From: Pseudomonadota bacterium | Lineage (GTDB): Bacteria > Pseudomonadota > Gammaproteobacteria > Burkholderiales > Sulfuricellaceae | Direction of reading: 5' to 3' | DNA length: 53,989 nucleotides | Assembly (NCBI GenBank): GCA_021801705.1 | Contig: JAJYXP010000017.1 | Location: 1 to 53,989, forward strand | In this document: one piece after another, positions 2,683 through 53,989 of the stretch | How positions within the stretch are numbered: position 1 is the stretch's first letter | Layout of the letters: each line of letters begins with the position of its first letter | Translations under genes and position numbers: made by a program | Notes under the pieces: generated by a model | The model's database searches: none | What the model saw: only the letters and a program-made list of their open reading frames with translations | What the model was told of the DNA's origin: nothing

Positions 2683-3287
2683 TGGCTCGATTTCCTTTGC
2701 TCAAGGCCCTCATCTTTCCTGTTTGCCTGATCCCGCTGGCAAGGCTGGGCTGGTATGGCTATACGGACCAGCTTGGCGCCAACCCCATCGAGTTCGTCAC
2801 CCGCTCGACCGGAACCTGGACGCTGATATTTTTGCTCGTTACCCTGTGCGTCACGCCGCTACGCAAAATCTCGGGTTGGCAAGCGCTCATCAAACTGCGC
2901 CGCATGCTGGGCCTGTTTGCCTTTTTTTACGCCAGCCTGCACTTCGCCACTTACATTTGGCTCGATCAGTTCTTCGACCTGCAGTCCATATACAAGGATG
3001 TGTTCAAGCGGCCTTTCATCACCATCGGCTTCATTGGATTCATGATGTTGATTCCGCTGGCGCTTACTTCGACCAATGCCATGATAAAACGGCTGGGCGG
3101 CAAGCGCTGGCGGCGACTGCATCAACTGGTTTATTTCATCGCCATTTGCGCTGTAGTGCATTACTGGTGGCTGGTGAAGAAGGACATTACCCAACCGGCG
3201 ATTTACGCGGGGGCCTTGGCGGTACTGCTGGGATATCGGCTAATGGCCATGTTGCCGAAATCCGGGGCCCTCTTATCCAAAATATGA
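2682..3287 (+). CDS. msrQ: MsrQ heme-binding membrane subunit of the methionine sulfoxide reductase
   Basis: Integral membrane b-type cytochrome (YedZ, ferric reductase-like fold) that passes electrons from the quinone pool to MsrP. Several hydrophobic segments are evident across 201 residues. Candidate heme-ligand histidines lie in YASLHFATY, in WRRLHQLVYF and in AVVHYWWLVKKD, the typical family positions. It starts on the overlapping TGATG of msrP, so the two are surely one operon. Nothing is missing compared with the family. Confidence 0.94.
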   Translation: MARFPLLKALIFPVCLIPLARLGWYGYTDQLGANPIEFVTRSTGTWTLIFLLVTLCVTPLRKISGWQALIKLRRMLGLFAFFYASLHFATYIWLDQFFDLQSIYKDVFKRPFITIGFIGFMMLIPLALTSTNAMIKRLGGKRWRRLHQLVYFIAICAVVHYWWLVKKDITQPAIYAGALAVLLGYRLMAMLPKSGALLSKI

Positions 3288-3388
3288 TCGCTCGTCGCAC
3301 GAGCGCTGCGCCCCATGTTGCTCCACGAACAAACGCTTCGTAGAAGTGAATGCTATCATTACAGGATACGCTATCACCGGACCCCATC

Positions 3389-4231
3389 ATGACATCCTCC
3401 CAAAATATCCGCAGCATGGCGCTGTTTTGCGATTTCGAGAACATCGCCCTGGGGGTGCGCGACGCCAAGTACGCCCAATTTGATATCAGCAAGGTTTTGG
3501 AAAAGCTGCTGCTCAAGGGCAGCATCGTGGTGAAAAAAGCCTATTGCGACTGGGACCGCTACAAGGAATTCAAGGCCCCCATGCACGAGGCCTCGTTCGA
3601 GCTGATCGAGATTCCCCATGTGCGCCAATCGGGCAAGAACTCCGCCGACATCCGCATGGTGGTGGACGCCCTTGATCTCTGCTATACCAAATCCCATGTG
3701 GACACTTTCGTGATCATCAGTGGTGACTCCGATTTCTCCCCCCTGGTAAGTAAACTGCGCGAAAATAACAAGATCGTGATCGGCGTCGGGGTAAAAAACT
3801 CCACCTCAGACCTGCTGATCGCCAACTGTGACGAGTTTATCTACTACGACGACCTGGCGCGGGAAAAAGCGGAAAAAGCAGAAAAAGCGAAGAAACGCAC
3901 CGGCAGCAAGAAAAAACCCGCCAAGGATGTCGCTGAAGCGGTCCCCAAAACGCCGCCACAACCCGAGGGAGACAAAACCCTGGAGGCGCTGGTCCTGGTG
4001 ATGGAGACGGTGGAGGCACTATTTGCGGAACGGGGCGAAGAGGACAAAATTTGGGGCTCGATGGTCAAGCAGGCGCTCAAGCGCCGCCGGCCGGGCTTCA
4101 ACGAGAGCTACTATGGTTTTCGCACCTTCAGCAAGCTGCTGGAGGAGGCCGCTGCACGCAAACTTCTTGACGTGGCGCACGACGAAAAGTCGGGCCAGAT
4201 CATCATCAAGAACTTCAACCCCGATTATTAG
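3389..4231 (+). CDS. NYN-domain (LabA/DUF88-like) protein with C-terminal OST-HTH/LOTUS domain
   Basis: Two-domain protein of about 280 residues. The N-terminal 155 residues form a NYN (PIN-like) nuclease domain with the acidic motifs expected for metal-dependent RNA cleavage: ALFCDFENI near the start, SADIRMVVDAL in the middle and ISGDSDFSPLV. A charged Lys/Glu/Ala linker (EKAEKAEKAKK onward) leads to a C-terminal OST-HTH/LOTUS-like region ending in GQIIIKNF, a fold linked to RNA binding. An earlier in-frame ATG at 3350 would add 13 residues; I prefer 3389 because family similarity begins just after it. Neighbours do not reveal a target. RNase activity is a family inference, not shown here. 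Confidence 0.85.
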   Translation: MTSSQNIRSMALFCDFENIALGVRDAKYAQFDISKVLEKLLLKGSIVVKKAYCDWDRYKEFKAPMHEASFELIEIPHVRQSGKNSADIRMVVDALDLCYTKSHVDTFVIISGDSDFSPLVSKLRENNKIVIGVGVKNSTSDLLIANCDEFIYYDDLAREKAEKAEKAKKRTGSKKKPAKDVAEAVPKTPPQPEGDKTLEALVLVMETVEALFAERGEEDKIWGSMVKQALKRRRPGFNESYYGFRTFSKLLEEAAARKLLDVAHDEKSGQIIIKNFNPDY

Positions 4232-4261
4232 TAGTCAGTCATGTTGAATTTGCGTGATTTT

Positions 4262-4316
4262 CTTGTAGGGCCGAATTCATTCGGCCAAATGTGCGAATGA
4301 ATTCGCACCTACAAAG
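4262..4316. repeat. Palindromic intergenic repeat with two nested hairpins (TTGTAGG family)
   Basis: The arms TTGTAGG and CCTACAA enclose two perfect hairpins: GGCCGAAT/ATTCGGCC (4269-4286) and GTGCGAAT/ATTCGCAC (4291-4308), each with a two-base loop. It lies between the convergent NYN gene and kup. A related element with the same arms and a GCGAATTCGGCC core sits at 53766-53824, so this looks like a mobile REP-like family rather than a gene-specific terminator. Confidence 0.8.
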
Positions 4317-4392
4317 AACGTACAGTCGCTTTAAGTTGACTGACAACTAGGCCATTCTGACAACAGAATCGCGGGCCTTGCCGGCGCGGGCC

Positions 4393-6306
4393 TCACAGCT
4401 CGATCTGCGTCCCGAGCTCCACCACCCGGTTGGTGGGAATCCTGAAGTAGGCGGTGACGCTGCCCGCATTGCGCGCCATGCTGATAAACAATTTTTCGCG
4501 CCACAACGCCATGCCCGGCGCTATTGTCGCAATCAGGGTTTCCCGGCTGATGAAAAAGGAGGTTTCCATCATCTGGAAGGGCAGCCCATACTCCTCGCAT
4601 TGGGCCAGCGTCTTGGGAATGTCCGGCTCATCCTTGAAACCGTAGCGCACAATGATCCGGTAGAACTCGTTCCCCAGCGGCTGTACCTCGACGTGATCGA
4701 TTTCCGGCACATGGGGAACATCCTCGGTGATGACCGTCAACAGTGCCACCCGCTCATGCAGCACCTTGTTGTGTATGAGGTTGTGCAACATCGCATGAGG
4801 CACCCCGTCGAGGTTGGCGGTGAGGAATACCGCAGTACCCGGAACACGTAGCGGCGGATGGGCGGCAATGCTGGCCAAAAAGGGCTCAAGTGCGATGGCG
4901 CCGGTCTGCAGCCGTTCGAACAGCAGCGCCCGTCCCCGCTTCCAAGTAGAGAGCAGGGTAAATACCGCAATAGCGACAACCAGCGGAAACCACCCCCCCA
5001 GAGGAATCTTCATGGCGTTCGCGCTGAAGAATGACAAGTCTATGATCAGGAAAAAGATGGCCACCACCCCGCCCGTCAGCCAGCTCCAGCCCCACAATGC
5101 GCGCGCCACCACCACCGCCAGAATGGTGTCGATCGCCATGGTGCCGGTCACCGCAATGCCATAAGCGGCGGCGAGGTTGCTGGAGGTGCGGAACCCCAGC
5201 ACCAGAGCGATGATTGCCGCAAGCAGGGCCCAGTTGATAGCCGGGAGATAAACCTGGCCGATTTCCTTTTCCGAGGTGTGCTGCACTTCCAGCCGGGGGC
5301 AGTAGCCCAGTTGCATCGCCTGGCGGGTGACGGAAAAGGCGCCCGAAATCACCGCCTGCGAAGCGATCACCGTGGCCAGGGTGGCGAGGGCTACCATGGG
5401 ATAAAGAGCCCAGGAGGGGACAAGCAGGTAAAACGGGTTCTCCACCGCGACGGGATTGTGGATCAGCAGCGCGCCCTGGCCGAAGTAATTGAGCAGCAGC
5501 GCCGGCAGCACCAGAAAGAACCACGCGGTCCTGATCGGCATGCGGCCAAAATGGCCCATGTCGGCGTAAAGCGCCTCCCCCCCCGTAACAGCCAGCACCA
5601 CCGCCCCCAAGGCGAGAAAGCCGTACCACTTGTGCTCCGCGAAGAACTGGATGCCGTAGAGCGGGTTCACCGCCAGCAATACCGCCGGTTCGTCAAGGAT
5701 GTTGATGATGCCGAGCAATGCCAGGGCGGCAAACCAAACGCACATCACCGGCCCGAACAATGCGCCCACGCTGGCGGTGCCCTTGCGCTGGAAGACAAAC
5801 AGCGCCACCAGCACGATCAGGGTGATCGGAATGACATAGGATTCAAGCGCGGGGGTGGCGATTTTCAGTCCCTCCACCGCCGACAGGACCGAAATCGCCG
5901 GGGTGATCAGGCTGTCGCCGTAGAACAGTGCGGCGCCAAATATCCCCATCGACATGAGCAGCCAGCGGCTGCGTGTGTCGCCCGGCGAATGTTTCAAAGT
6001 CAGCGCCAGCAGGGCCATGATGCCGCCCTCGCCGTTGTTGTTGGCGCGCATGATAAAGATCACGTACTTGAGCGATACCACGATCAGTAGCGCCCACAGC
6101 ACCAGTGACAGCGCCCCCAGCACGTTGTCATGACTGGTCGGAATGCCGTGGCCGGCGTGGAATACCTCTTTCAGGGTGTACAGCGGGCTGGTGCCGATGT
6201 CGCCAAACACCACGCCGATGGCCGCGAGCATCAGGCCGGATGGCTTGCCCTTGCCGCCTGGTTCCTCGGGGGTATGCGCATCAGGCCTTTTTTCGTTTGT
6301 ACTCAT
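4393..6306 (-). CDS. kup: Kup-type low-affinity potassium transporter
   Basis: Inner-membrane K+/H+ symporter of the Kup/HAK family. From the ATG at 6306 it is 637 residues, normal for the family. Residues after about 25 begin the typical IGVVFGDIGTSPLYTLKE segment, followed by about 12 membrane spans and a roughly 150-residue cytoplasmic tail. I chose 6306 over the longer in-frame start at 6354 because AAAGGAA lies at proper spacing before it and the extra 16 residues look unlike the family. It faces the ntrYX pair, so sensing and K+ uptake genes are adjacent but kup is transcribed on its own. Confidence 0.95.
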   Translation of the reverse strand: MSTNEKRPDAHTPEEPGGKGKPSGLMLAAIGVVFGDIGTSPLYTLKEVFHAGHGIPTSHDNVLGALSLVLWALLIVVSLKYVIFIMRANNNGEGGIMALLALTLKHSPGDTRSRWLLMSMGIFGAALFYGDSLITPAISVLSAVEGLKIATPALESYVIPITLIVLVALFVFQRKGTASVGALFGPVMCVWFAALALLGIINILDEPAVLLAVNPLYGIQFFAEHKWYGFLALGAVVLAVTGGEALYADMGHFGRMPIRTAWFFLVLPALLLNYFGQGALLIHNPVAVENPFYLLVPSWALYPMVALATLATVIASQAVISGAFSVTRQAMQLGYCPRLEVQHTSEKEIGQVYLPAINWALLAAIIALVLGFRTSSNLAAAYGIAVTGTMAIDTILAVVVARALWGWSWLTGGVVAIFFLIIDLSFFSANAMKIPLGGWFPLVVAIAVFTLLSTWKRGRALLFERLQTGAIALEPFLASIAAHPPLRVPGTAVFLTANLDGVPHAMLHNLIHNKVLHERVALLTVITEDVPHVPEIDHVEVQPLGNEFYRIIVRYGFKDEPDIPKTLAQCEEYGLPFQMMETSFFISRETLIATIAPGMALWREKLFISMARNAGSVTAYFRIPTNRVVELGTQIEL

Positions 6307-6407
6307 CGCTTGAGATTCCTTTACCGCCGGCATTGGCCGAGGGAAGGAGCGCAATTCTATTCCTTTTCCTGGCGGGCTAAAACAGTTTTATTGCCGGGGA
6401 GGGCGGA

Positions 6408-7679: not shown

Positions 7680-9812
7680 TTACGTACCCTCCAGGCACGG
7701 CAAGTACACGCTCACGCTGGCGCCGCAGGGCTGAATATTTTCGATTTTCATTCTGCCGTGATGCTCCTCGATAATTTTCTTGACGATCGCCAATCCCAAC
7801 CCTGTTCCCTTCGGCTTGGTCGTGACATAAGGCTCAAACAACCGCGCCATGAGCATATCGGGAAAGCCGGCGCCGTTGTCCCGGATGGTCAGCCTGACGA
7901 AATTTTGCTCCACAGCCGTTTCCACCACAATCTGCGGGTTTTCCGCTTCAATAAGCGCGTCCTGGGCGTTTTTCAACAGGTTGTGTACAACCTGGCGCAG
8001 CAGAGTAGGGTCTCCCGCTATCTGGGGCAGCACCGGCGCAAGACGGGTGGCAATTTGCGCGCCGGTATGTTCGTACAGCGTCAGGATCTCGCGCACCAGA
8101 AGATTGAGATCCAGCGTTTCCGGGTTCAGGCTGGGAGCGCGTGCGTACTCGCTGAAAGAGTTCACCATGCTCTTCAGCGCCGTCACCTGGTTGACGATAG
8201 TCTGGGTCGCCCGCCTCAGCACCTCGGCATCCGGTTCGGCAAGCTTGTCGGCAAGCTTGTGCTCGAGCCGCTCGGCCGAGAGCTGAATCGGCGTCAGCGG
8301 ATTCTTGATTTCATGCGCCAGCCGGCGTGCCACCTCGCCCCACGCGGCATCACGCTGGGCCTGGAGCAAATGGGTAATGTCGTCGAACACCACGATGAAA
8401 TCCTCGCCCACTGCGGCTGGCAGGCGAGCGCCCCGCACCAGCAGGACCTGATTCCCATTCCTGCCGGCATATTCCATCTGCTTTATCCATTCTTTCGCCC
8501 CATTCTGGCGGAACAGCTCCTCGACTTCCATCGCCAGGGTTTTTAGTGCTTCATCGTTGAGCGCCCACTTGTAGAGCCGCCGCTTGCCCAGAGAAGACAA
8601 ATCCACGCCGAGAATCTCCGCTGCGGCGGGATTCATGGCCGTGAGGCTGAGGTTTTCGTCGAAGGCCAACACCCCGCTGGACAGGTGCGCCAGGATGCTT
8701 TCCAAATAGGCTTTTGCCGTTTCCAACTGGCGCTGGTTGAGCTCGACCACGCCTCGCGCCTCAGCCAGTTGCCGCGTCATGTCGTTGAAGGACTGCATCA
8801 GCGACCCCAGTTCGTCGCGATTGCTCACCGCCGGCATGGCGCTGAAATCACCCGAAGCGACGGCCTGCGTGCCCTTCGCCAGCAGCCCGAGGGGCGCGGA
8901 CAGGCGCGCACTGAGAAGGAATGCCAGCGCAATGGCGGAAAGCAGCGCCAACAGCAGCGCCAGCGTCAATGTCAGGCCGTAGATCCGTTTCAGCCCCAGC
9001 CGTGAAACCGAAAGCTCCTGATAGTCGCGGTACACTGCCTGCACCGTTTCCGCATCCTTGGCCAGCCGCGTCGGAACAGGCTGGAACAGTTGCAGGACGC
9101 GTACGCTTTCGTTCAGGTCAAACACATTGACCGGAACGATAACCCGCAGATACAGACCCTTTTCCGGGACCGCCTCAATCGCGGAGTAGGGTTGCTGCTG
9201 GCGCACCTGGCGCAGCAGGGAAGGGGAAGGGCGGTCGGGCAGCAGACTGAACCGATCGCTCCCCGAGAAGGCGATGACCGCCCCGCGCGAACTGAACAAG
9301 GTCGCTTCTTGCACGCCGGCCTGTTCGCGCAGGCTGTTGAGTAGTGTCAAATGGTCGGCGATCGGCCTGTCCTCCAGCGACAGTGCCATGTACTCCGCCT
9401 TTTTATTAAGCTCTCGCAGCAGGTTGTCGAGCGCGCTGCGCCCCAGACTCAAGCCTCCTTCCAGCGCATTGTCCACACGCACGTCGAACCAGGATTCGAT
9501 GCTCTTGCTTAAAAACTGCACTGAAACTCCATATACCAGCACACCGGGCACCACCGCCATCAGCGCAAACATCAAGAGCAGGCGCAGCGTCAGCTTCGCG
9601 CCGAACACCCGCGCCTTGAGCTTGCGCCGCAGGTTCCATAACTGGTAGCCGATCAATGCCAGCAAGCATGTCGCCAACACGCCGTTCAGACCAAGCAACA
9701 GCGTGTAGTTCTGGGAAAAAGCGGCGGTATTGGCACTGGCCTTGGAGAGTAAATAGAGCGCCACACCGCCGAGGGCAACGCACAGATAGAGGATGTATTT
9801 CATCGTTCTCAT
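7680..9812 (-). CDS. ntrY: NtrY-like membrane sensor histidine kinase
   Basis: Sensor kinase of about 710 residues. Near the N-terminus are two hydrophobic spans, then RRKLKARVFGAKLTLRLLL and a third span, a periplasmic loop, another span and a HAMP linker. A PAS domain (VLAFDENLSLTAMNPAAAEI) and a HisKA domain with the phospho-histidine in RRLAHEIKNPLTPIQ follow, then an HATPase with NLLKNAQDAL (N box), DNGAGFP and GTGLGLAIVKK. It phosphorylates the adjacent NtrX. The start is uncertain: MRTMKY offers ATGs at 9812 and 9803, and a longer reading to 9896 would run into the DUF4390 gene. In related bacteria NtrYX responds to nitrogen or redox/respiratory state; the sequence does not say which here. 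Confidence 0.92.
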   Translation of the reverse strand: MRTMKYILYLCVALGGVALYLLSKASANTAAFSQNYTLLLGLNGVLATCLLALIGYQLWNLRRKLKARVFGAKLTLRLLLMFALMAVVPGVLVYGVSVQFLSKSIESWFDVRVDNALEGGLSLGRSALDNLLRELNKKAEYMALSLEDRPIADHLTLLNSLREQAGVQEATLFSSRGAVIAFSGSDRFSLLPDRPSPSLLRQVRQQQPYSAIEAVPEKGLYLRVIVPVNVFDLNESVRVLQLFQPVPTRLAKDAETVQAVYRDYQELSVSRLGLKRIYGLTLTLALLLALLSAIALAFLLSARLSAPLGLLAKGTQAVASGDFSAMPAVSNRDELGSLMQSFNDMTRQLAEARGVVELNQRQLETAKAYLESILAHLSSGVLAFDENLSLTAMNPAAAEILGVDLSSLGKRRLYKWALNDEALKTLAMEVEELFRQNGAKEWIKQMEYAGRNGNQVLLVRGARLPAAVGEDFIVVFDDITHLLQAQRDAAWGEVARRLAHEIKNPLTPIQLSAERLEHKLADKLAEPDAEVLRRATQTIVNQVTALKSMVNSFSEYARAPSLNPETLDLNLLVREILTLYEHTGAQIATRLAPVLPQIAGDPTLLRQVVHNLLKNAQDALIEAENPQIVVETAVEQNFVRLTIRDNGAGFPDMLMARLFEPYVTTKPKGTGLGLAIVKKIIEEHHGRMKIENIQPCGASVSVYLPCLEGT

Positions 9813-9831
9813 CGGCTGCCGGCGGGGAAAA

Positions 9832-10404
9832 TCAGGGGGCAATGTTCCAGCGATGCCATTCCGAATCCAGGTTCCACTCTTTGGACGCCAGCGCATTTAC
9901 TTGCAGGGGCTTGGGAAGTTGCGTCATATCCAGCTTCATGCGCAATCCGGCTACATATGCGGTATGTTTCTTTACCCGGCCCTTTTCCACCACAGTCCAG
10001 CCATGCAACCGGCCCAACTCGCGCCGGGCTTCGCTTAAAGAGGAGAAGTTCTGGTATTGGCCATTCAAACTGAGTTGATATTGCCGCGTCAGGGCATGAT
10101 AGTTTAAACGGATGTGCTGCTGCACAGCGGCAATGGTTTCGTCCAGCCAGTACCAGCGCGGCTTCTTGAGCTCGAAGTCGACAATGAAATTGAGCGGCAC
10201 CCCTTTGTTCAGCACGTCCTCGATCGCCGGACTGAGGCTGATTTCCAGCTCGGCGTTCAGCACCAAGGTTTCTTCCACCGGCTCCAGCTCGGCGGATCTG
10301 ATCTCGATGCCCTCGGCTTTCGCCGCCACGGGCAGGATCAGGAGCAGCGCCAGAAAGCAGGCCCAGGTAAATTTGAAAAGCCTAGGCTTTATACAGTAGC
10401 GCAT
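9832..10404 (-). CDS. DUF4390 domain-containing exported protein
   Basis: A 190-residue protein with an N-terminal signal or anchor (hydrophobic FTWACFLALLLILPVAAKAEG) and a mostly beta, charged remainder that matches the DUF4390 family typically found between rsmB and ntrY in betaproteobacteria. The ATG overlaps the end of rsmB by 23 bases, and ntrY follows after about 20 bases, so it is co-transcribed with the kinase. An extracytoplasmic role connected with NtrY is a contextual guess. No catalytic motif is visible. Confidence 0.85.
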   Translation of the reverse strand: MRYCIKPRLFKFTWACFLALLLILPVAAKAEGIEIRSAELEPVEETLVLNAELEISLSPAIEDVLNKGVPLNFIVDFELKKPRWYWLDETIAAVQQHIRLNYHALTRQYQLSLNGQYQNFSSLSEARRELGRLHGWTVVEKGRVKKHTAYVAGLRMKLDMTQLPKPLQVNALASKEWNLDSEWHRWNIAP

Positions 10405-11653
10405 AGTAAAACCCGTCGTGCTGGTGGTTGGGTATCAACTGTCCCTTTCCGGCTTCCGCCAGGGAAAGGGGCAAGACTTGGGCATCCTCATGCCGGGACA
10501 GAAAGCGGGCGATCTGCTCCTGGTTTTCCTCGGCGAACACCGAACAAGTGGCATACAGCAATTTACCACCACTAACCAGCACGCGCCACAATGCATCCAG
10601 GATTTGAGCCTGCTGCCGGGCAAATGCAGCGATGTCCGCCTCGCGCCGCAACCACTTGATGTCCGGATGACGCCTTACCACGCCCGACGCGCTGCATGGC
10701 ACATCGGCCAGGATGCGCTGGAATGGCTTGCCGTCCCACCAGTCTTCAGGCTTGGCGGCATCCCCCGCCACACAAAGCGCTTTAAGCTTGATCCGGCGCA
10801 GATTCTGTTCGATTTTTTTCAGCCGCTCGGGATCATGATCCAGGGCGGTCAATTCGATCCCGGCCAATTCCAGCAGGTGGGCGGCTTTTCCGCCGGGCGC
10901 GGCGCAGGCGTCCAGCACCCGCATGCCGTCTGCCACATCGAGCAACCGGGCCGCCCATTGCGCGCCGGCGTCCTGCACCGAGACCATGCCCGCGCCAAAG
11001 CCCGGCAGCCGGTCCACGGCCAACGGCTGATCCAGCAAAATGGCGTTTTCCCCCGTCTGACGGCCTGCGATGCCATGCCGGCGCAACAGCGCGAGATAAT
11101 CTTCGGTTGTGCTTTCCCGGCAATTCACGCGCAGCGTCATCGGCGGATGCTGGTTGTTGGTTTCCAGCATGCCCTGCCAGTTTTCCGGATACTGCCGCCG
11201 CAGCTTGTCTATCCACCATTGCGGGTGGGAGTAGCGGCCTTCCTCGCCCGACGCGGCCTGTTCGAGCAAGGCGGGCCGCTGACGCAGGAAGTTGCGCAAA
11301 ACGGCGTTGACCAGCCCCTTGGCCCAGGCCTTTTTGATCGCCTGCACCGTTTTTACCGCGTGATCCACCACCGCGTGATCGGCCGCCTTGCTGTATTGCA
11401 ACTGATAGAGCGCTACCAGCAGGAGCGCGCGCACGGCTTCGTCCTGCAGCGGCTTTTGCAACAGAAGATCGAGAATGGCGCTCAGCGTGCCGTAAAACCG
11501 CAGCGTGCCGTAGCTCATATCCTGGGCGGCGGCGCGCTGCTGCGGCGTCAGCGGCGGGCGGCGAGAAAACAGGCCCAGCAGGACCTGGTTGAGATTGCGT
11601 CCGGCCAGAACCTGGGCGACAGCGGTGCTGGCAAGACGCTGCGCTTCGATCAA
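10382..11653 (-). CDS. rsmB: 16S rRNA (cytosine(967)-C(5))-methyltransferase
   Basis: SAM-dependent RNA m5C methyltransferase (423 aa). The N-terminal third is a NusB-like RNA-binding domain. The catalytic part has LDACAAPGGKAAHLLEL (SAM loop), ADVPCSASGVVRRHPDIKW with one catalytic cysteine, and YATCSVF with the other. These two cysteines are the signature of Sun/RsmB enzymes acting on C967 of 16S rRNA. No in-frame ATG is available and the likely start is TTG at 11653, five bases after the htpX stop, without a clear ribosome site; translation is probably coupled to htpX. Confidence 0.94.
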   Translation of the reverse strand: MIEAQRLASTAVAQVLAGRNLNQVLLGLFSRRPPLTPQQRAAAQDMSYGTLRFYGTLSAILDLLLQKPLQDEAVRALLLVALYQLQYSKAADHAVVDHAVKTVQAIKKAWAKGLVNAVLRNFLRQRPALLEQAASGEEGRYSHPQWWIDKLRRQYPENWQGMLETNNQHPPMTLRVNCRESTTEDYLALLRRHGIAGRQTGENAILLDQPLAVDRLPGFGAGMVSVQDAGAQWAARLLDVADGMRVLDACAAPGGKAAHLLELAGIELTALDHDPERLKKIEQNLRRIKLKALCVAGDAAKPEDWWDGKPFQRILADVPCSASGVVRRHPDIKWLRREADIAAFARQQAQILDALWRVLVSGGKLLYATCSVFAEENQEQIARFLSRHEDAQVLPLSLAEAGKGQLIPNHQHDGFYYALLYKA

Positions 11654-11657
11654 GATA

Positions 11658-12500
11658 TCATCTTGCCTGGGCCATCGCCATCAGGCGGGCAATCCGCTCC
11701 TCGGTGGCCGGGTGGGTGCGGAACAGTCCGCTCAGGCCGCTGCCGGAGAGCGGGTTGATGATCATCATCTGTGCTGTTTCAGGGTGCGCTTCTGCCGTTG
11801 AGAGCGGCAACCCCTGTGCAAAACGCTCGATCTTGGCCAGGGCATCGGCCAAGGCGCGCGGGTCGCCGCCGATTTCCGCGCCGCCCCGGTCCGCCTCGAA
11901 TTCGCGCGAACGGGAGATGGCCATCTGGATCAACATCGCCGCCAAGGGCGCAACGATCATGACGACCAAACCGACGATCGGATTGCGGTTCTCGCGGTCA
12001 CCGCCGAAAAACACACCAAACTGCGCCAAGGCGGAGATGGCGCCGGCAACCGTCGCCGAAATTGTCGATATCAGGATATCGCGGTGCTGGACATGCGCGA
12101 GCTCGTGCGCCATGACGCCGCGCAGTTCGCGTTCGGACAGCATTTGCAGAATGCCGGTCGTTGCCGCGACGGCGGCATGCTCCGGGTTGCGTCCGGTGGC
12201 GAAGGCGTTGGGTTGCGCTTCGTCGATGATGTAGACGCGCGGCATGGGAAGGCCGGCGCGCTGCGCCAGGTCGCGGATCATGCGATAGAAGTGCGGCGCG
12301 CTGCTTTCGTCCACCTCCTGGGCATTGTACATACGCAGCACCATGTCAGCGGAATTCCAGTATGCCCATACGTTCATCGCCGCGGCGAATGCCAGGGCCA
12401 GCAACATCCCGGTCAAACCGCCCAGCATCAGGCCTATCGCGCCGAACAGGGCGACGATCGCCGCCATCAAAATCGTGGTTTTCAGCCAGTTCCCCAACAT
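11658..12500 (-). CDS. htpX: HtpX-family membrane zinc metalloprotease
   Basis: M48 membrane protease (280 aa) for quality control of inner-membrane proteins. Two N-terminal membrane spans (residues 9-47), then AHELAHVQH with zinc ligands H132 and H136 and catalytic E133, two more spans, and [12 protein letters not shown] supplying the third ligand. Length and order are standard. It lies between fmt and rsmB on the same strand with short gaps, as in related betaproteobacteria. Confidence 0.95.
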
Positions 12501-49391: not shown

Positions 49392-51575
49392 CTAAAATTC
49401 CAGCGGGTCGACGTCCAGCGACCAGCGCACACGCCCGGCCAGCCTGGAAAGCTCTATGTTCCACGCGCTGATAAAAGCCTGTAAAGCGCCCCGGGATGCT
49501 GACTGAACCAGCAGGTGCGCGCGTTCCTTGCCGGCCAGCCGCGCCATCTGGGCGGGCACCGGGTCGAACAGGCTGACGCCGAATTGTTTGGGTGCGACCG
49601 CCTTTGCCTGGTGCAGAAATGCAAGCGCGGTTTCCATCTGCGCCGCTTCGGCACGCAGTAGCGCCTGGTGGCAATAGGGCGGGAATTCCGCCTGCTTGCG
49701 CTCCGCCAGCAGGCCTTCCGCAAAACCTTGGTAATCGTGCCGGATCAGGGACTGGAATAAAGGGTGGGTCGGAAACTGGGTCTGAATCAGGACTTCACCG
49801 GGGAGAACATCGCGGCCGGCGCGCCCCGCGATCTGCATCAACTGCGCGAACAGGCGTTCCGAGGCGCGAAAGTCACCGCTGTAGAGCGCGCCATCCGCGT
49901 TGACCACACCGACCAGGGTGAGTTTTTTGAAGTCATGGCCCTTCGCCAGAAGCTGGGTGCCGATTACGATATCCACCTCGGCCGCATGGATGCGTTCCAG
50001 CATTTCGGGCAAAGCATGCTTGCGCCGGGCGCTGTCACGGTCAACGCGCAGGATGCGGGCGGCGGGGAAAATGCGCGTCAGAGAGGCTTCCAGGCGCTGG
50101 GTGCCGTGGCCCAGAGGCGCCAGATCGGCGTTTCCGCAATCCGGGCAGCTTGGCGGAATGCGCGACTCGTGACCGCAGTGGTGGCAGCGCAGGCGTTTTT
50201 CGCGCAGGTGCACCACCAGCCGGCTGGAACAGCGGTGGCAGGTGGAGATCCAGCCGCATTGGCCGCAGCGCATCACCGGGGCATAGCCGCGGCGGTTGAT
50301 GAAAACCAGGCTTTGCTCGCCGCGTTCGAGGCGGGTTCGCAGCGCCGCGAGCAACGGCTCGGACAGGCCTTCGGTCAGCTCGGCCCGGCTGATGTCGATG
50401 CAGCGGATGGTCGGCAGCGCGGCTTCGGCCACCGCGCGCGCGGGCAGCTCCAGCAGGTGGTAGCGGCCGGTCAGCGCGTTGTAATACGTTTCCAGGGCCG
50501 GCGTGGCGGAACCGAGAATGGCCGGCACCCCGGCCTGCTTGGCGCGCGCGATGGCCATGTCGCGCGCGGAATAGCGCAGCCCGTCCTGCTGCTTGAACGA
50601 GCCGTCGTGTTCTTCGTCCACCACGATCAGCTTTAGTTGCGGCAGCGGCGTGAACAGGGCCAGGCGCGTGCCCAGCACGATGCGGGCGCGGCCGCACTGC
50701 GCCAGCCGCCAGTGGCGCAGGCGTTCCCCGGCGGAGAGGCGGCTGTGCAGGCTGACCTGGCATAGTGCCGGGAAACGGGCGCGGAAACGCTCTTCCAGTT
50801 GCGGGGTGAGATTGATTTCCGGCACCAGCACCAAAACCTGCCCGCCCCGCTCAAGAACCCGAGCGATGACCCGCAGGTAGACCTCGGTTTTGCCGCTGCC
50901 GGTAATGCCGTGCAGCAGCCACACCTTGAATTGCTCCGGGCCGGCAAGGATGGCGGCAACCGCCTGCTCCTGGGCCTGCGTCAATGACCGCAGCTTGTCA
51001 GCCCTGACCGGTGCGGGCGCCATGTCGAGCGTCTCGTCGCTTGCGGCGGCCCAGCCCAGTGCAACGAACTCCATGATGGCTCGCGGGCCGCTCGGCGACA
51101 GCGCCGCAACGTCGTCGCGCGTCAGCATGCCGGCCTGTTTCAGGCTTTGCAGCAGGCGGCGCTTGACGATTGCGCGGGCGGGCAGGGTATCGGCCTCGAC
51201 TGCGACCCCCGCCTCGGTCAGGCGGTAGGCGGTGGGTTTGGCGGGGGCAGGCGGCTTGGCCTGGCGCAGGGGGACGGGCAGGGCGTTGAGTATGACCTCG
51301 CCCAGGGGGTGGTGGTAGTAATCGGCGCAAAAGCGCAGCAGCCGGATGATTTCTTCGGACAGGGGTGGAGTGTCGCGGAAAACGCGCAGTACGGGTTTGA
51401 TGCGCTCCGGCGGCAGCTCGCTATGGTCGGCGATTGCGGCGACAATGCCAACCATTCTGCGGCGGCCGAAAGAAACCAGAACGCGGTCGCCGATGCCTAT
51501 TTCGCCATGGCCTTCGGCGGAGTAGTCAAACAGGCTGTCGAGCGGGACATCCAGGGCGATCTGTACGATTTTCAC
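49392..51575 (-). CDS. priA: Primosomal replication restart helicase PriA
   Basis: Reloads DnaB at collapsed forks (727 aa). It has the N-terminal DNA-binding domain (VQIALDVPLDSLFDYS), Walker A GITGSGKTEVYLR, the DEEHD motif II, paired zinc-binding cysteines (CGQCGWISTCHRC, CHHCGHES, CPDCGN), and the helicase C-terminal QIAGRAGRD. The ATG overlaps the upstream small ORF by four bases (ATGA). Confidence 0.98.
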   Translation of the reverse strand: MKIVQIALDVPLDSLFDYSAEGHGEIGIGDRVLVSFGRRRMVGIVAAIADHSELPPERIKPVLRVFRDTPPLSEEIIRLLRFCADYYHHPLGEVILNALPVPLRQAKPPAPAKPTAYRLTEAGVAVEADTLPARAIVKRRLLQSLKQAGMLTRDDVAALSPSGPRAIMEFVALGWAAASDETLDMAPAPVRADKLRSLTQAQEQAVAAILAGPEQFKVWLLHGITGSGKTEVYLRVIARVLERGGQVLVLVPEINLTPQLEERFRARFPALCQVSLHSRLSAGERLRHWRLAQCGRARIVLGTRLALFTPLPQLKLIVVDEEHDGSFKQQDGLRYSARDMAIARAKQAGVPAILGSATPALETYYNALTGRYHLLELPARAVAEAALPTIRCIDISRAELTEGLSEPLLAALRTRLERGEQSLVFINRRGYAPVMRCGQCGWISTCHRCSSRLVVHLREKRLRCHHCGHESRIPPSCPDCGNADLAPLGHGTQRLEASLTRIFPAARILRVDRDSARRKHALPEMLERIHAAEVDIVIGTQLLAKGHDFKKLTLVGVVNADGALYSGDFRASERLFAQLMQIAGRAGRDVLPGEVLIQTQFPTHPLFQSLIRHDYQGFAEGLLAERKQAEFPPYCHQALLRAEAAQMETALAFLHQAKAVAPKQFGVSLFDPVPAQMARLAGKERAHLLVQSASRGALQAFISAWNIELSRLAGRVRWSLDVDPLEF

Positions 51576-51856
51576 TTGTGCCCTTTTGGTTTGCGTGGTG
51601 TTGGGCGGGGATAAGCCGGGCGCTCATCGCTTCCCCTAAAACGACTTAAGAGGTAAAACAGGCTTTCCCAAGCGGTATCCAGGCGCTGCACTACCGTGGT
51701 TTGTTGCTCGCCCGTCAGGTCGGGACTGAGCCGAGGGGCATCTTCTGCAAAGAATCGGGTCACAAATTTCTCTTTATCCGGCTCAAGCGTGTTTTTGCGG
51801 GTATCCCACTTGATTCGCTCTTCTATGGACCGATGAACTTGTGCCGTCTGTGCCAA
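51572..51856 (-). CDS. Small hypothetical protein upstream of priA
   Basis: A 94-residue frame, charged, ending in a Pro/Arg/Lys-rich tail (RPAYPRPTPRKPKGHK). Its TGA overlaps the priA ATG (ATGA), which supports real translation. It lacks an ATG: the longest reading starts with TTG inside the end of the HNH gene, and a GTG at 51763 would give about 63 residues. No ribosome site is clear. I recognise no family. It may be the remaining end of a gene whose front was lost when the HNH/dnd segment arrived. Confidence 0.45.
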   Translation of the reverse strand: MAQTAQVHRSIEERIKWDTRKNTLEPDKEKFVTRFFAEDAPRLSPDLTGEQQTTVVQRLDTAWESLFYLLSRFRGSDERPAYPRPTPRKPKGHK

Positions 51857-52758
51857 TCCAGATTTTTCTGGCTCGGACGGTGTTTAGGTTGCAGCCAAGA
51901 AAAATCGAGCAGCTTTGACTGATATGACATCAGCCCCGTTTGATTGGGCGCCTGCTCTGCAAATTTACCGCAAGCAACCACTATCTTGAAGCTTGTGTCT
52001 ATCGACCAAAGCCCTTGGTCAAATGCCCAGTGATGATTACGACATAACGCCATACCATTTGTAATGTCATCGTTCTTACTTTGTGTAAACTGGTGAATAT
52101 GTGCTGCCTCGACCAAAGCAATCCCAGATGGCAGCAGCATCTTGATTCCACAAAGCGCGCAGGAGTAGTGATAAAGCGGTACGATTTGGAGTCGAAATTT
52201 GATATCCCTGCCCTGCTTGACATCTTCATCTCTTAATACAGTTGGCATCGATTCGCCGTCCAAGTCGAAATCGCTTGAACCCAAACCCAGCATGGCAAGT
52301 AGCTTGATTTTTTCTTCTGGAAAAAACCAGCTGCCTGCAATCAATATTTTTCGAGCCGCATCACGATGGTCAGTGTTTTGCATTAATACGAAAAATTCTT
52401 TGGGAAGTTCGGCGTGTGAAATAACTTTGTTTAATAGTTCCACCGATGTCGGGCGGATGCTGCCAAGTGCAGCCTCTAACCCTGGAATAGGAACGTGCCT
52501 GAGAAATCCATCGCTTTGAAGGTGAAAGAAAGGCAATTCGGCACGACCAACTGATCTGCCTCGGGAGCTAACAACTTCCCAATAACCCAAGAAGCGAAAA
52601 GCAAGTTCAGGTGTCAGTCTTACAATGTTTGAGGTGATGCTGCCTTCCTCTATTTGGTCAAGGATTGCAAGCAGAAGAAGAGGTTTGTGTGGTGCCGGAT
52701 TCTTTGAAGCCCGGTCAACTCGCAGCTTTGCGAGTCTATTAAGCCAATCATTAAGCAT
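51823..52758 (-). CDS. HNH endonuclease with SBD-like N-terminal domain (putative phosphorothioate-dependent restriction enzyme)
   Basis: A 311-residue two-domain nuclease. The N-terminal part carries NPAPHKPLLLLAILDQI (20-36) and ELPFFHLQSDGF (74-85), the layout I associate with sulfur-binding domains of ScoMcrA-like type IV enzymes that recognise phosphorothioate DNA. The C-terminal part is a complete HNH: C200-x2-C203, EAAHIH with H220, N234 in ITNGMALC, and NHHWAFDQG with H243. The tail LDWHRRHKFIGP also fits this family. It starts inside the end of a truncated dndC-like frame. The HNH fold is certain; specificity for sulfur-modified DNA is inferred. The aromatic residue I expect just before PF is a Leu here, which could alter recognition. 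Confidence 0.85.
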   Translation of the reverse strand: MLNDWLNRLAKLRVDRASKNPAPHKPLLLLAILDQIEEGSITSNIVRLTPELAFRFLGYWEVVSSRGRSVGRAELPFFHLQSDGFLRHVPIPGLEAALGSIRPTSVELLNKVISHAELPKEFFVLMQNTDHRDAARKILIAGSWFFPEEKIKLLAMLGLGSSDFDLDGESMPTVLRDEDVKQGRDIKFRLQIVPLYHYSCALCGIKMLLPSGIALVEAAHIHQFTQSKNDDITNGMALCRNHHWAFDQGLWSIDTSFKIVVACGKFAEQAPNQTGLMSYQSKLLDFSWLQPKHRPSQKNLDWHRRHKFIGP

Positions 52759-52966
52759 GCGCTACAGTACGGGAACGGTCGGAGGACGTCACCGCGAGCA
52801 TGGCTTCAAGAACGGCCTGGGCCACCAGCGTGCTGTCCTTGCCCCCGGAGAAACCAATAATCCAAGGGTAGCGCTGAGTATCGGACAGGTATTCCGCCTT
52901 AATGTCAGCCACTATGTTTTCCCATAGCGTCATCGGCTGAAATTGGTAGGCGGTGGTATTTTTCAT
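52751..52966 (-). pseudogene. dndC: Truncated dndC-like (PAPS reductase-type DNA phosphorothioation gene), N-terminal fragment
   Basis: A 71-residue frame with the DndC start: a helix LWENIVADIKAEYLSD, then PWIIGFSGGKDSTLVAQAVL with the PP-loop SGGKDST at residues 40-46, which activates the sulfur-transfer chemistry. Full DndC is several hundred residues; here similarity ends near residue 66 (SSDRSRTV) and the frame stops four codons later, overlapping the HNH start by eight bases. dndB, dndD and dndE are absent around it. It cannot be a working modification enzyme. Another PP-loop ATPase is possible but the flanking pattern fits DndC best. Confidence 0.75.
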
Positions 52967-53025
52967 GAAGTATTGTAACGGAATTTTATAAGTGGGCGCG
53001 CACGGAACAGGGGGGGCACGACTGT

Positions 53026-53199
53026 TTAAAGATAAATTTCGATACAGGCGCGTTCCTTGACAAAGGCCTTTTCGATCTCATCCTTGAAGGAGAGCAGCAC
53101 GTTTAGCGCGGCTGCCTTGGACTGATTGCCGATTTTCAGCCAGATGATTTTCGGTGGAGCGCCGTCGAAACAGCTCGGTTCTACGCGGTCTGCAACCAT
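53026..53199 (-). pseudogene. DUF5615 PIN-like toxin, C-terminal fragment
   Basis: A 57-residue frame whose core GAPPKIIWLKIGNQSKAA and acidic ending CIEIYL match the C-terminal half of DUF5615 (Mut7-C-like) toxins, which are normally about 110-120 residues. The N-terminal half, with the catalytic acidic residues, is missing. Its ATG overlaps the end of the DUF2442 gene by 19 bases. DUF433 antitoxins usually sit directly before DUF5615 toxins; here DUF2442 lies between, as if inserted at the break. Confidence 0.65.
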
Positions 53200-53447
53200 T
53201 CGATGACTTTTCCCGTTGCGCGCTCATACAAGGTTTCCGGGGATACATCGAAGCCGCAATCCCAAGTCAAAGTCGGCCATGCGTCAAGTTTGAATTGCTT
53301 GAATTTCTCGGCATCGCGCAGCGGTGCGGCAATGTTGTATTTGAATACCATATCGCGCAAATCAACCTCGCCTGATTCGCCGGTGTTGAACTTCAGCCAG
53401 ATGCGATAGCCGTCGAGATAGCGCGCGTCCTGGACGTTTACGATCAT
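53181..53447 (-). CDS. DUF2442 domain protein
   Basis: An 88-residue protein of the DUF2442 family, with WLKFNTGESGEVDLRDM and the ending ATGKVIEWLQ. GAGGAG lies before the ATG. Such genes are often the antitoxin-like partner of a DUF4160 gene, which is not present here. It lies between a DUF433 gene and a DUF5615 remnant, suggesting a rearranged toxin-antitoxin cluster. Confidence 0.8.
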   Translation of the reverse strand: MIVNVQDARYLDGYRIWLKFNTGESGEVDLRDMVFKYNIAAPLRDAEKFKQFKLDAWPTLTWDCGFDVSPETLYERATGKVIEWLQTA

Positions 53448-53466
53448 TGCGGTCTCCTCACGGCAC

Positions 53467-53694
53467 TCATGGGGTGGTGAGCGTGAATAGGTTGTGCTCG
53501 CGGTTGGCGGCGAAGCCCAGGCAGGCGGCGATGTCTTCCGGTTCCAGCTCAGGAAAATCTGCCAGAATTTCGGTCTGGCTCATGCCTTGAGCCAACATTT
53601 CCAGCACGTCGTAAACCGTGATTCTCAAGCCCCGAATGCAAGGCTTGCCACCCCGTTTGCCGGATTCGATGGTGATTCTTTGCCGATAATCCAT
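53467..53694 (-). CDS. DUF433 antitoxin-like HTH protein
   Basis: A 75-residue protein: RITIESGKRGGKPCIRGLRITVYDV then a helix-turn-helix-like MLAQGMSQTEILADFPELEPEDI. This is the DUF433 (VapB45-like) antitoxin family. GGGAGG eight bases ahead fixes the ATG at 53694; a longer reading to 53766 enters a repeat. Its expected DUF5615 partner survives only as the fragment at 53026-53199. Confidence 0.88.
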   Translation of the reverse strand: MDYRQRITIESGKRGGKPCIRGLRITVYDVLEMLAQGMSQTEILADFPELEPEDIAACLGFAANREHNLFTLTTP

Positions 53695-53765
53695 ATGCGC
53701 CTCCCGGGAGTTGCCGCGGTCTTGGCTAGCATTTAACCCAGATTGTCCATTGGAATGCTCGTGCA

Positions 53766-53824
53766 TGTAGGAGCGCCGCCCCCGGCGCGAATTCGGCCAT
53801 CGCGGCGAGGGCGTCGCTCCTACA
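53766..53824. repeat. Palindromic intergenic repeat (TGTAGG family)
   Basis: Arms TGTAGGAGCG-x-CGCCC and GGGCG-x-CGCTCCTACA with the core GCGAATTCGGCC. It resembles the element at 4262-4316 in its TGTAGG/CCTACA ends and its GAATTC centre, and lies between the DUF433 gene and an IS end. Confidence 0.8.
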
Positions 53825-53865
53825 GCGGTGTTTTGGTTCTAACGGAAAATCCGGGTTTAATTCTA

Positions 53866-53989
53866 GGTTCTGTTGACGTATTGCCGCCGGTAAAATTTGC
53901 CGTATTTTACCGCGATGAACAGACTGAAGCTAAGTGATGAAGAGTGGGAACGCCTGCTGGCGGAACTGAGGAAAATACCGGGCATTCGC
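53866..53989 (+). mobile_element. Left end of an IS5-type insertion sequence (runs off the window)
   Basis: GGTTCTGTTGAC at 53866 resembles an IS terminal repeat and is preceded by CTA; reading the duplication as CTAG would fit the YTAR target of IS5-group elements. A transposase start follows 49 bp in. The other end is outside the window, so boundaries are provisional. Confidence 0.6.
53915..53989 (+). CDS. IS5-type transposase, N-terminal part (cut by the window edge)
   Basis: Frame ATG to the window end (25 codons), reading LKLSDEEWERLLAELRKIPG. The LSDxxWERL pattern is the usual N-terminus of IS5/IS427-like DDE transposases. The catalytic part lies beyond the window, so integrity cannot be judged. 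Confidence 0.65.
   Translation, partial: MNRLKLSDEEWERLLAELRKIPGIR

Follow-up and report, generated by a model that had tools for sequence, protein, structure and literature searches.

The window, a stretch of 53,989 nucleotides from a bacterium of the Sulfuricellaceae, probably carries the late remains of a dnd operon for phosphorothioate (PT) modification of DNA that has been taken over by an HNH nuclease with a sulfur-binding domain (SBD), most likely PT-dependent; the nuclease would be harmless to its host and would restrict PT-DNA. On the minus strand, the order is DndC remnant, HNH gene, DndD remnant and priA, with the following parts:

52769..52966, minus strand: dndC remnant, the first 66 codons with the SGGKDS PP-loop motif (88% identity over 68 residues to L035 dndC; DndC models)
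52751..52768, minus strand: dndC end, 18 nt comprising five codons and the stop (two-block alignment to L035)
51823..52758, minus strand: intact SBD-HNH nuclease gene of 311 codons (SBD, HNH_2 and residue matches)
51650..51823, minus strand: dndD remnant, approximately codons 324-382, abutting the HNH stop (identity to G057 dndD; DndD profile)
49392..51575, minus strand: priA, the neighbour beyond the dndD remnant and outside the system (TIGR00595, 577 bits against a cut-off of 230)

The 71-codon DndC frame (52751-52966, minus strand) overlaps the start of the HNH gene by 8 nt. Past the dnd remnant, the flank at 53026-53766 contains short toxin-antitoxin-like pieces, with matches to DUF433 (53467-53766) and the DUF2442/DhiA antitoxin (53181-53447) and a weak match to DUF5615 (53026-53199). 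For the sequence on the far side of dndC (52967-53989), L033-L037 offer no match, which leaves this border without a comparison partner.

The N-terminus of the nuclease, which the sequence-only reading had taken to be sulfur-binding, matches SBDHga1 (structure 8h0l) in a single-sequence search (E = 7e-13), and a profile of 34 homologues matches three solved SBDs, namely SBDHga1 (3.2e-34), the ScoMcrA SBD 5zmo (1.7e-8) and the SprMcrA SBD 7cc9 (1.3e-4), bearing out that assignment. An HNH_2 domain (PF13391) is also matched (E = 1.9e-12), and a Pfam search at E 0.1 returned no SRA domain. Based on the cavity residues of the ScoMcrA SBD given in PMC6224610 (SBD structure is also treated in PMC7470945), the equivalents of H116, R117 and P165 in the window nuclease are H24, K25 and P76, with H conserved in 33 of the 34 homologues and K and P in all of them, while ScoMcrA Y164 and A168 correspond to L75 and H79, the same residues as in SBDHga1. 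The HNH triad is similarly conserved (H220 in 33/34, N234 and H243 in 34/34). By domain content and residues, the gene is a member of the SBD-HNH family, sharing the order of SBD then HNH, the cavity H, K and P, and the HNH triad with the type IV enzymes EcoWI and SprMcrA and with SBDHga1. It is related to NF045808 PT-DNA_restrict (121.3 bits over 305 residues, E = 4e-35) but is not filed under that model, its score lying below the curated 180-bit cut-off, and SBD-HNH members on E. coli plasmids, annotated as PT-DNA-binding restriction endonucleases, show about 28% identity to it. Because the SBD, the cavity residues and the HNH triad are all present, the protein is likely a PT-dependent SBD-HNH enzyme that cuts sulfur-marked DNA.

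The gene that gave way to the nuclease is dndD. The remnant behind the nuclease, which the sequence-only reading had overlooked, is 78% identical to codons 324-382 of the intact dndD of G057, a full-length relative that passes the TIGR03185 DndD cut-off (282.8 vs 245.85 bits), and it also matches the PADLOC PbeC/DndD-type model at residues 330-388 (E = 2.8e-8). Only positions 323-380 of the DndD profile are left in the window genome (E = 1.2e-15), the N-terminal ATPase part being absent. In the HNH-free clusters G057 and G213, dndC is followed by a small ORF (read in G057), dndD, and a gene for a DndE-like protein fused to an ATPase; in L034 and L035, dndC enters a short nuclease leader a few codons ahead of its usual end. 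Relative to these clusters, the nuclease stands in place of the very 3' end of dndC, the small ORF, and the half of dndD that encodes its N-terminus. The codon at which dndD resumes varies among related loci, from about 306 in L035 to 324 in the window, L033 and L034, 395 in L040, 418 in L042 and 535 in L043, whereas L038 and L041 lack dndD in the interval from dndC to the DndE-like gene. An assembly artefact or chance is an unlikely source of the HNH-dndD joint of the window, because the independent MAGs L033 and L034 have the same joint, and L036 retains approximately 20 nt of it. The earlier proposal that the nuclease replaced modification genes holds insofar as the displacement lies inside a dead dnd operon and recurs elsewhere, with the amendment that the displaced gene is dndD and that the break in dndC is a different matter.

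The 71-codon frame matches the PADLOC DndC model (E = 7e-12) and TIGR03183 (E = 2.9e-9), and it aligns to the uninterrupted 383-aa DndC of the nearest relative, L035 (a Sulfurimicrobium MAG, the same record as L024), in agreement with the original description of a DndC-like PP-loop gene start cut after about 66 codons. Models of other PP-loop families score lower than those of DndC, so a better fit to a non-Dnd PP-loop protein is not seen; a PF01507 search of the window's own genome gave no match, missing even the dndC fragment, and is therefore given no weight. Apart from a 936-bp in-frame deletion within dndC, the window and L035 are collinear; the deletion is visible as two main alignment blocks that touch in the window and lie 936 bp apart in L035. 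This deletion removes 312 of 383 codons relative to L035, leaving the dndC of the window incomplete, and its join lies between 52769 and 52768, 10 nt ahead of the HNH start codon. In L034 and L035, dndC is uninterrupted and stops at the TAA also used in the window, inside ATGCTTAA, so that it overlaps the nuclease by 8 nt. The nuclease therefore adjoins the dndC break because the two genes normally overlap, and its insertion into dndC at codon 66 is ruled out, since the intact dndC of L035 already overlaps the nuclease start. The sequence-only reading had placed an intact HNH gene beside the dndC break, and both the gene and its 8-nt overlap are confirmed; the break is nevertheless not the insertion point, and what truncated dndC was an in-frame deletion within the gene, not the nuclease. 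The deletion is seen in the window assembly only, and the alignments mark it as an event separate from, and later than, the arrival of the nuclease.

A scan of genome contigs matched 473 stretches, 272 of which encode relatives. Twelve of the best 80 of these 272 (L033-L044, 59-95% identity) form one nuclease clade with the window, with support of 100/100, within which the nucleases of L033-L037 are 88-94% identical to that of the window. The nuclease lies next to dnd genes or their remnants in 11 of the 13 clade loci (L036 having only the trace mentioned above), and on the same contig in 10 of 13; in L039, the dnd genes occupy a separate contig whose end equals the first 39 bases of L039's own contig. 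No dnd genes were recognised beside the nuclease in L037 and L044. Uninterrupted dndC adjoins the nuclease in L034, L035 and L038, and an uninterrupted DndE-like gene is found in L035, L038, L041 and L043, while both genes are also broken in several clade loci. A search that scored all candidates found no full dndD in the 13 clade genomes, with fragments in five and nothing in eight, the relatives being mostly MAGs that may be incomplete. The contigs of L035, L038 and L041 span the place of dndD, which is broken or absent there. Outside the clade, three distant loci have dndC beside an SBD-HNH gene: the genomes of Thiocapsa marina (L045) and L046 gave no dndD match, and Thiocapsa KS1 (L047) has a full dndD approximately 420 kb away from its dndC/SBD-HNH locus. 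The searched records of plasmids (34) and phages (3) contained only relatives with less than 60% identity and yielded no vehicle, and one scan of viral contigs gave a single relative at 36% identity, around which visual inspection revealed no dnd gene.

Among 399 genomes of the same order, dndC was matched at E 1e-15 in 24 (the window fragment included) and exceeded 300 bits in 18; a dndD reaching the N-terminal part was found in 17 of these 18 in a first look limited to two or fewer candidates per genome, in which misses weigh less. A full dndD was found in none of the six clade genomes with the nuclease and a dndC above 300 bits, and in one of nine when the three distant loci are added (Fisher p = 5e-5 and 3e-5, respectively, against 17/18, uncorrected for kinship). 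Mutual exclusion within these 399 genomes was not counted as evidence: the nine with SBD-HNH-like matches (E 1e-12) and the 17 with a dndD reaching the N-terminal part have an overlap of 0, but only about 0.4 shared genomes would be expected by chance.

The neighbouring dndC genes do not follow the nuclease phylogeny. In a dndC tree of 35 rows (the window row consisting of 68 residues only and the L039 row read in two pieces), the window, L034 and L035 group with G057 and G213, L041 and L039 with G016, and L042 falls inside G021 and G217, with L038 beside the L042/G021/G217 group. A single clade of the seven nuclease-side dndC rows is rejected (p-AU 6.6e-28), the nuclease label requiring four changes, and in the nuclease tree the pairing of L042 with L038 suggested by dndC is likewise rejected (p-AU 0.0004). 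The four changes are read as gains because the HNH-free relatives on the dndC tree carry dndD, and a lost dndD is unlikely to be regained. Since the nuclease forms one clade and the adjoining dndC genes are polyphyletic, the trees indicate that the nuclease entered dnd operons at least four times, provided that gains do not revert. One such entry can be followed between L042, whose closest clusters are nuclease-free, and G217: 1034 bp with the nuclease replace 1787 bp that run from the end of dndC into the first part of dndD, with flanks 84-93% identical. L042 additionally carries a further insertion in dndC and a deletion running from dndD into the next gene. The insertion (L042 2273-2485, approximately 213 bp) has a 16-bp duplication at its flanks relative to G217 and resembles a small mobile insertion.

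Purifying selection on the nuclease is strong within the clade, with Nei-Gojobori omega of 0.05-0.15 in pairs with dS <1, and omega is still 0.13 between L036 and L037, though at most a trace of dnd genes is left there. Values are also low for dndC pairs (0.08), DndE-like pairs (0.05) and broken dndD (0.04-0.06); because the last of these are low as well, the constraint on all three may mostly predate the nuclease, and in dndD it is mostly older than the breakage. Synonymous divergence between L034 and L035 (dS 0.52 for HNH, 1.08 for dndC) and between L035 and L043 (0.36 for HNH, 1.15 for the truncated dndD, 0.71 for dndE) gives a hint that the nuclease moved separately from its flanks. These values are not relied on, because the window-L035 pair points the other way (0.60 for HNH, 0.39 for the 68 dndC codons).

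Taken together, these comparisons show that in an ancestor the nuclease gene came to lie at the dndC-dndD junction, where it supplanted the last dndC codons, the small ORF, and the part of dndD for the N-terminal half; this lineage then lost 312 dndC codons in frame along with nearly all of the remaining dndD, whereas the nuclease stayed intact. With DndD gone, the cell would be unable to mark its DNA, so that the nuclease would do no harm to its host and would restrict incoming sulfur-marked DNA, and we infer a change from a marking to a restricting host. By landing in a dnd operon and destroying dndD, the nuclease would end the mark and self-cutting at once; dndC and the DndE-like gene would decay afterwards, with the nuclease persisting as a gene for type IV restriction. 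In this process, the window would represent a late stage, and L035 and L038 earlier ones. An SBD nuclease and an active dnd cluster are lethal in combination, and the same swap in at least four dnd lineages would be explained if surviving acquisitions disable the operon in the same event, and its occurrence in several unrelated bacteria suggests that cells can switch from sulfur marking to attacking such DNA.

It is also conceivable, albeit unlikely, that a working DndD-free defence system is made up of DndC, the DndE-like ATPase and the SBD-HNH protein, the last acting as effector, and that the window is a decayed copy in which only the nuclease is left. Such a partnership fits L035 and L038, where the nuclease is flanked by a dndC and a DndE-like gene that are both uninterrupted, as well as dndA, dndB, dndC, a second dndB and SBD-HNH in Thiocapsa marina, dndC, SBD-HNH, dndB and a cysteine desulfurase in L046, both genomes lacking a dndD match, and the view in PMC10853773 that SBD+SAD+HNH genes in dnd loci are restriction partners. 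In L035, L038 and Thiocapsa, DndC, the nuclease and the DndE-like protein might conceivably cooperate without DndD. However, the nuclease is intact in the window, L033, L036 and L037 with at most dnd fragments nearby, and PMC10853773 treats DndD and DndE as the obligate core of dnd modification. In the two Thiocapsa loci (L045 3622-9909, L047 3549-9909), a cysteine desulfurase, dndB, dndC, a second dndB-like gene and SBD-HNH stand together with dndD absent from the locus; omega is 0.15-0.33 for all five genes, and the locus is possibly a DndABC-SBD-HNH system. L046, a Deltaproteobacteria MAG, has dndC, SBD-HNH and the DndB-like gene in a row (2862-6389), with the cysteine desulfurase about 3 kb further on (9556-10692).

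Takeover of the operon by the nuclease also has to be weighed against mere coincidence, in which the nuclease arrived in a defence island and unrelated causes led to the decay of the dnd genes around it. The separate and later dndC deletion in the window, as well as the breakage of dndC and the DndE-like gene in several loci, would agree with coincidence, but the same slot is occupied in several dndC lineages with dndD broken or absent in each, whereas dndC or the DndE-like gene remains uninterrupted in L034, L035, L038, L041 and L043, making coincidence rather improbable. Misassembly as the origin of the joints is very improbable: the window is one of 79 contigs in its assembly and ends approximately 1 kb past the dndC remnant, and most relatives are MAGs, yet L033 and L034 share the HNH-dndD joint, and the close similarity of the nucleases of L033-L037 to that of the window likewise speaks against it. 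Free-standing homing endonuclease genes offer another comparison, as they place an HNH gene in one target slot across lineages. The position of the nuclease at one junction, dndC-dndD, in several dndC lineages would be reminiscent of them, but the dndD joints vary by locus. We regard it as distinctly unlikely, though worth stating, that the clade is a selfish gene specialised on dnd operons that cuts sulfur-marked chromosomes and is copied by repair or recombination into the dndC-dndD junction, erasing its own target. If true, an epigenetic mark rather than DNA sequence would guide homing, and the clade would be a natural eraser of phosphorothioation systems that could help explain their patchy distribution, a subject treated in PMC8569181.

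The takeover reading bears on two published views: SBD nucleases as enemies of phosphorothioation (PMC3009677, PMC7461809) and, for SBD+SAD+HNH genes, as the restriction arm in dnd loci (PMC10853773). According to PMC3009677, introducing ScoMcrA into dnd+ Streptomyces lividans lowered exconjugants 300-fold, with the dnd island lost in 10/10 examined, and an SBD nuclease and an active dnd cluster are incompatible in one cell. The window likewise associates nuclease gain with dnd gene loss, but the whole 93-kb island was lost in Streptomyces, whereas here the nuclease itself occupies the broken operon. In PMC7461809, less than 3.6% of SBD-HNH genes are near dnd genes and about 65 neighbourhoods are unresolved, a mutated dnd cluster being named as one possible reason; in contrast, the nearest clade of the window nuclease sits in dnd operons. 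The genes described in PMC10853773, with SBD(wHTH)+SAD+HNH (the ScoMcrA architecture), also place an SBD-type nuclease beside dnd genes; they differ in having a SAD/SRA domain and lying downstream of modification genes in 698 taxa, whereas the window nuclease has no SRA match and dndD is broken or absent. PMC10853773 attributes missing DndD/DndE to poor assemblies; the contigs of L035, L038 and L041 show true dndD loss, resembling a natural counterpart of the 2010 laboratory result. That a single SBD-HNH clade sits in the dnd operons of several lineages, where dndD is disrupted or missing, speaks for the enemy view as far as this clade is concerned, and strains representing different stages make the conflict testable. 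Searches of open-licence PMC papers turned up no description of dndD being displaced by an SBD-HNH gene; the approximately 65 cases of PMC7461809 are located in supplementary tables.

Related loci show further features. Of the best 80 SBD-HNH loci, 29 have a complete or fragmented HIT-family gene directly adjoining the HNH gene (L049, L050, L057, L059-L061, L064, L066, L067, L069-L071, L073-L077, L082, L084, L087-L091, L095, L097, L099, L101 and L107), and in L031, which has a complete dnd cluster and belongs to the same genus as the window, a HIT gene (11654-12016) lies after dndE; a HIT protein might act on an adenylated intermediate, although this is our guess. In addition, the gene after dndD occurs in two kinds with a similar N-terminus, a HerA/DndH-like or an FtsK/SspH-like ATPase, behind related dndC and dndD, as seen in the comparison of L026 7725-9266 with L025 11908-13443, and also in L041 9377-10903.
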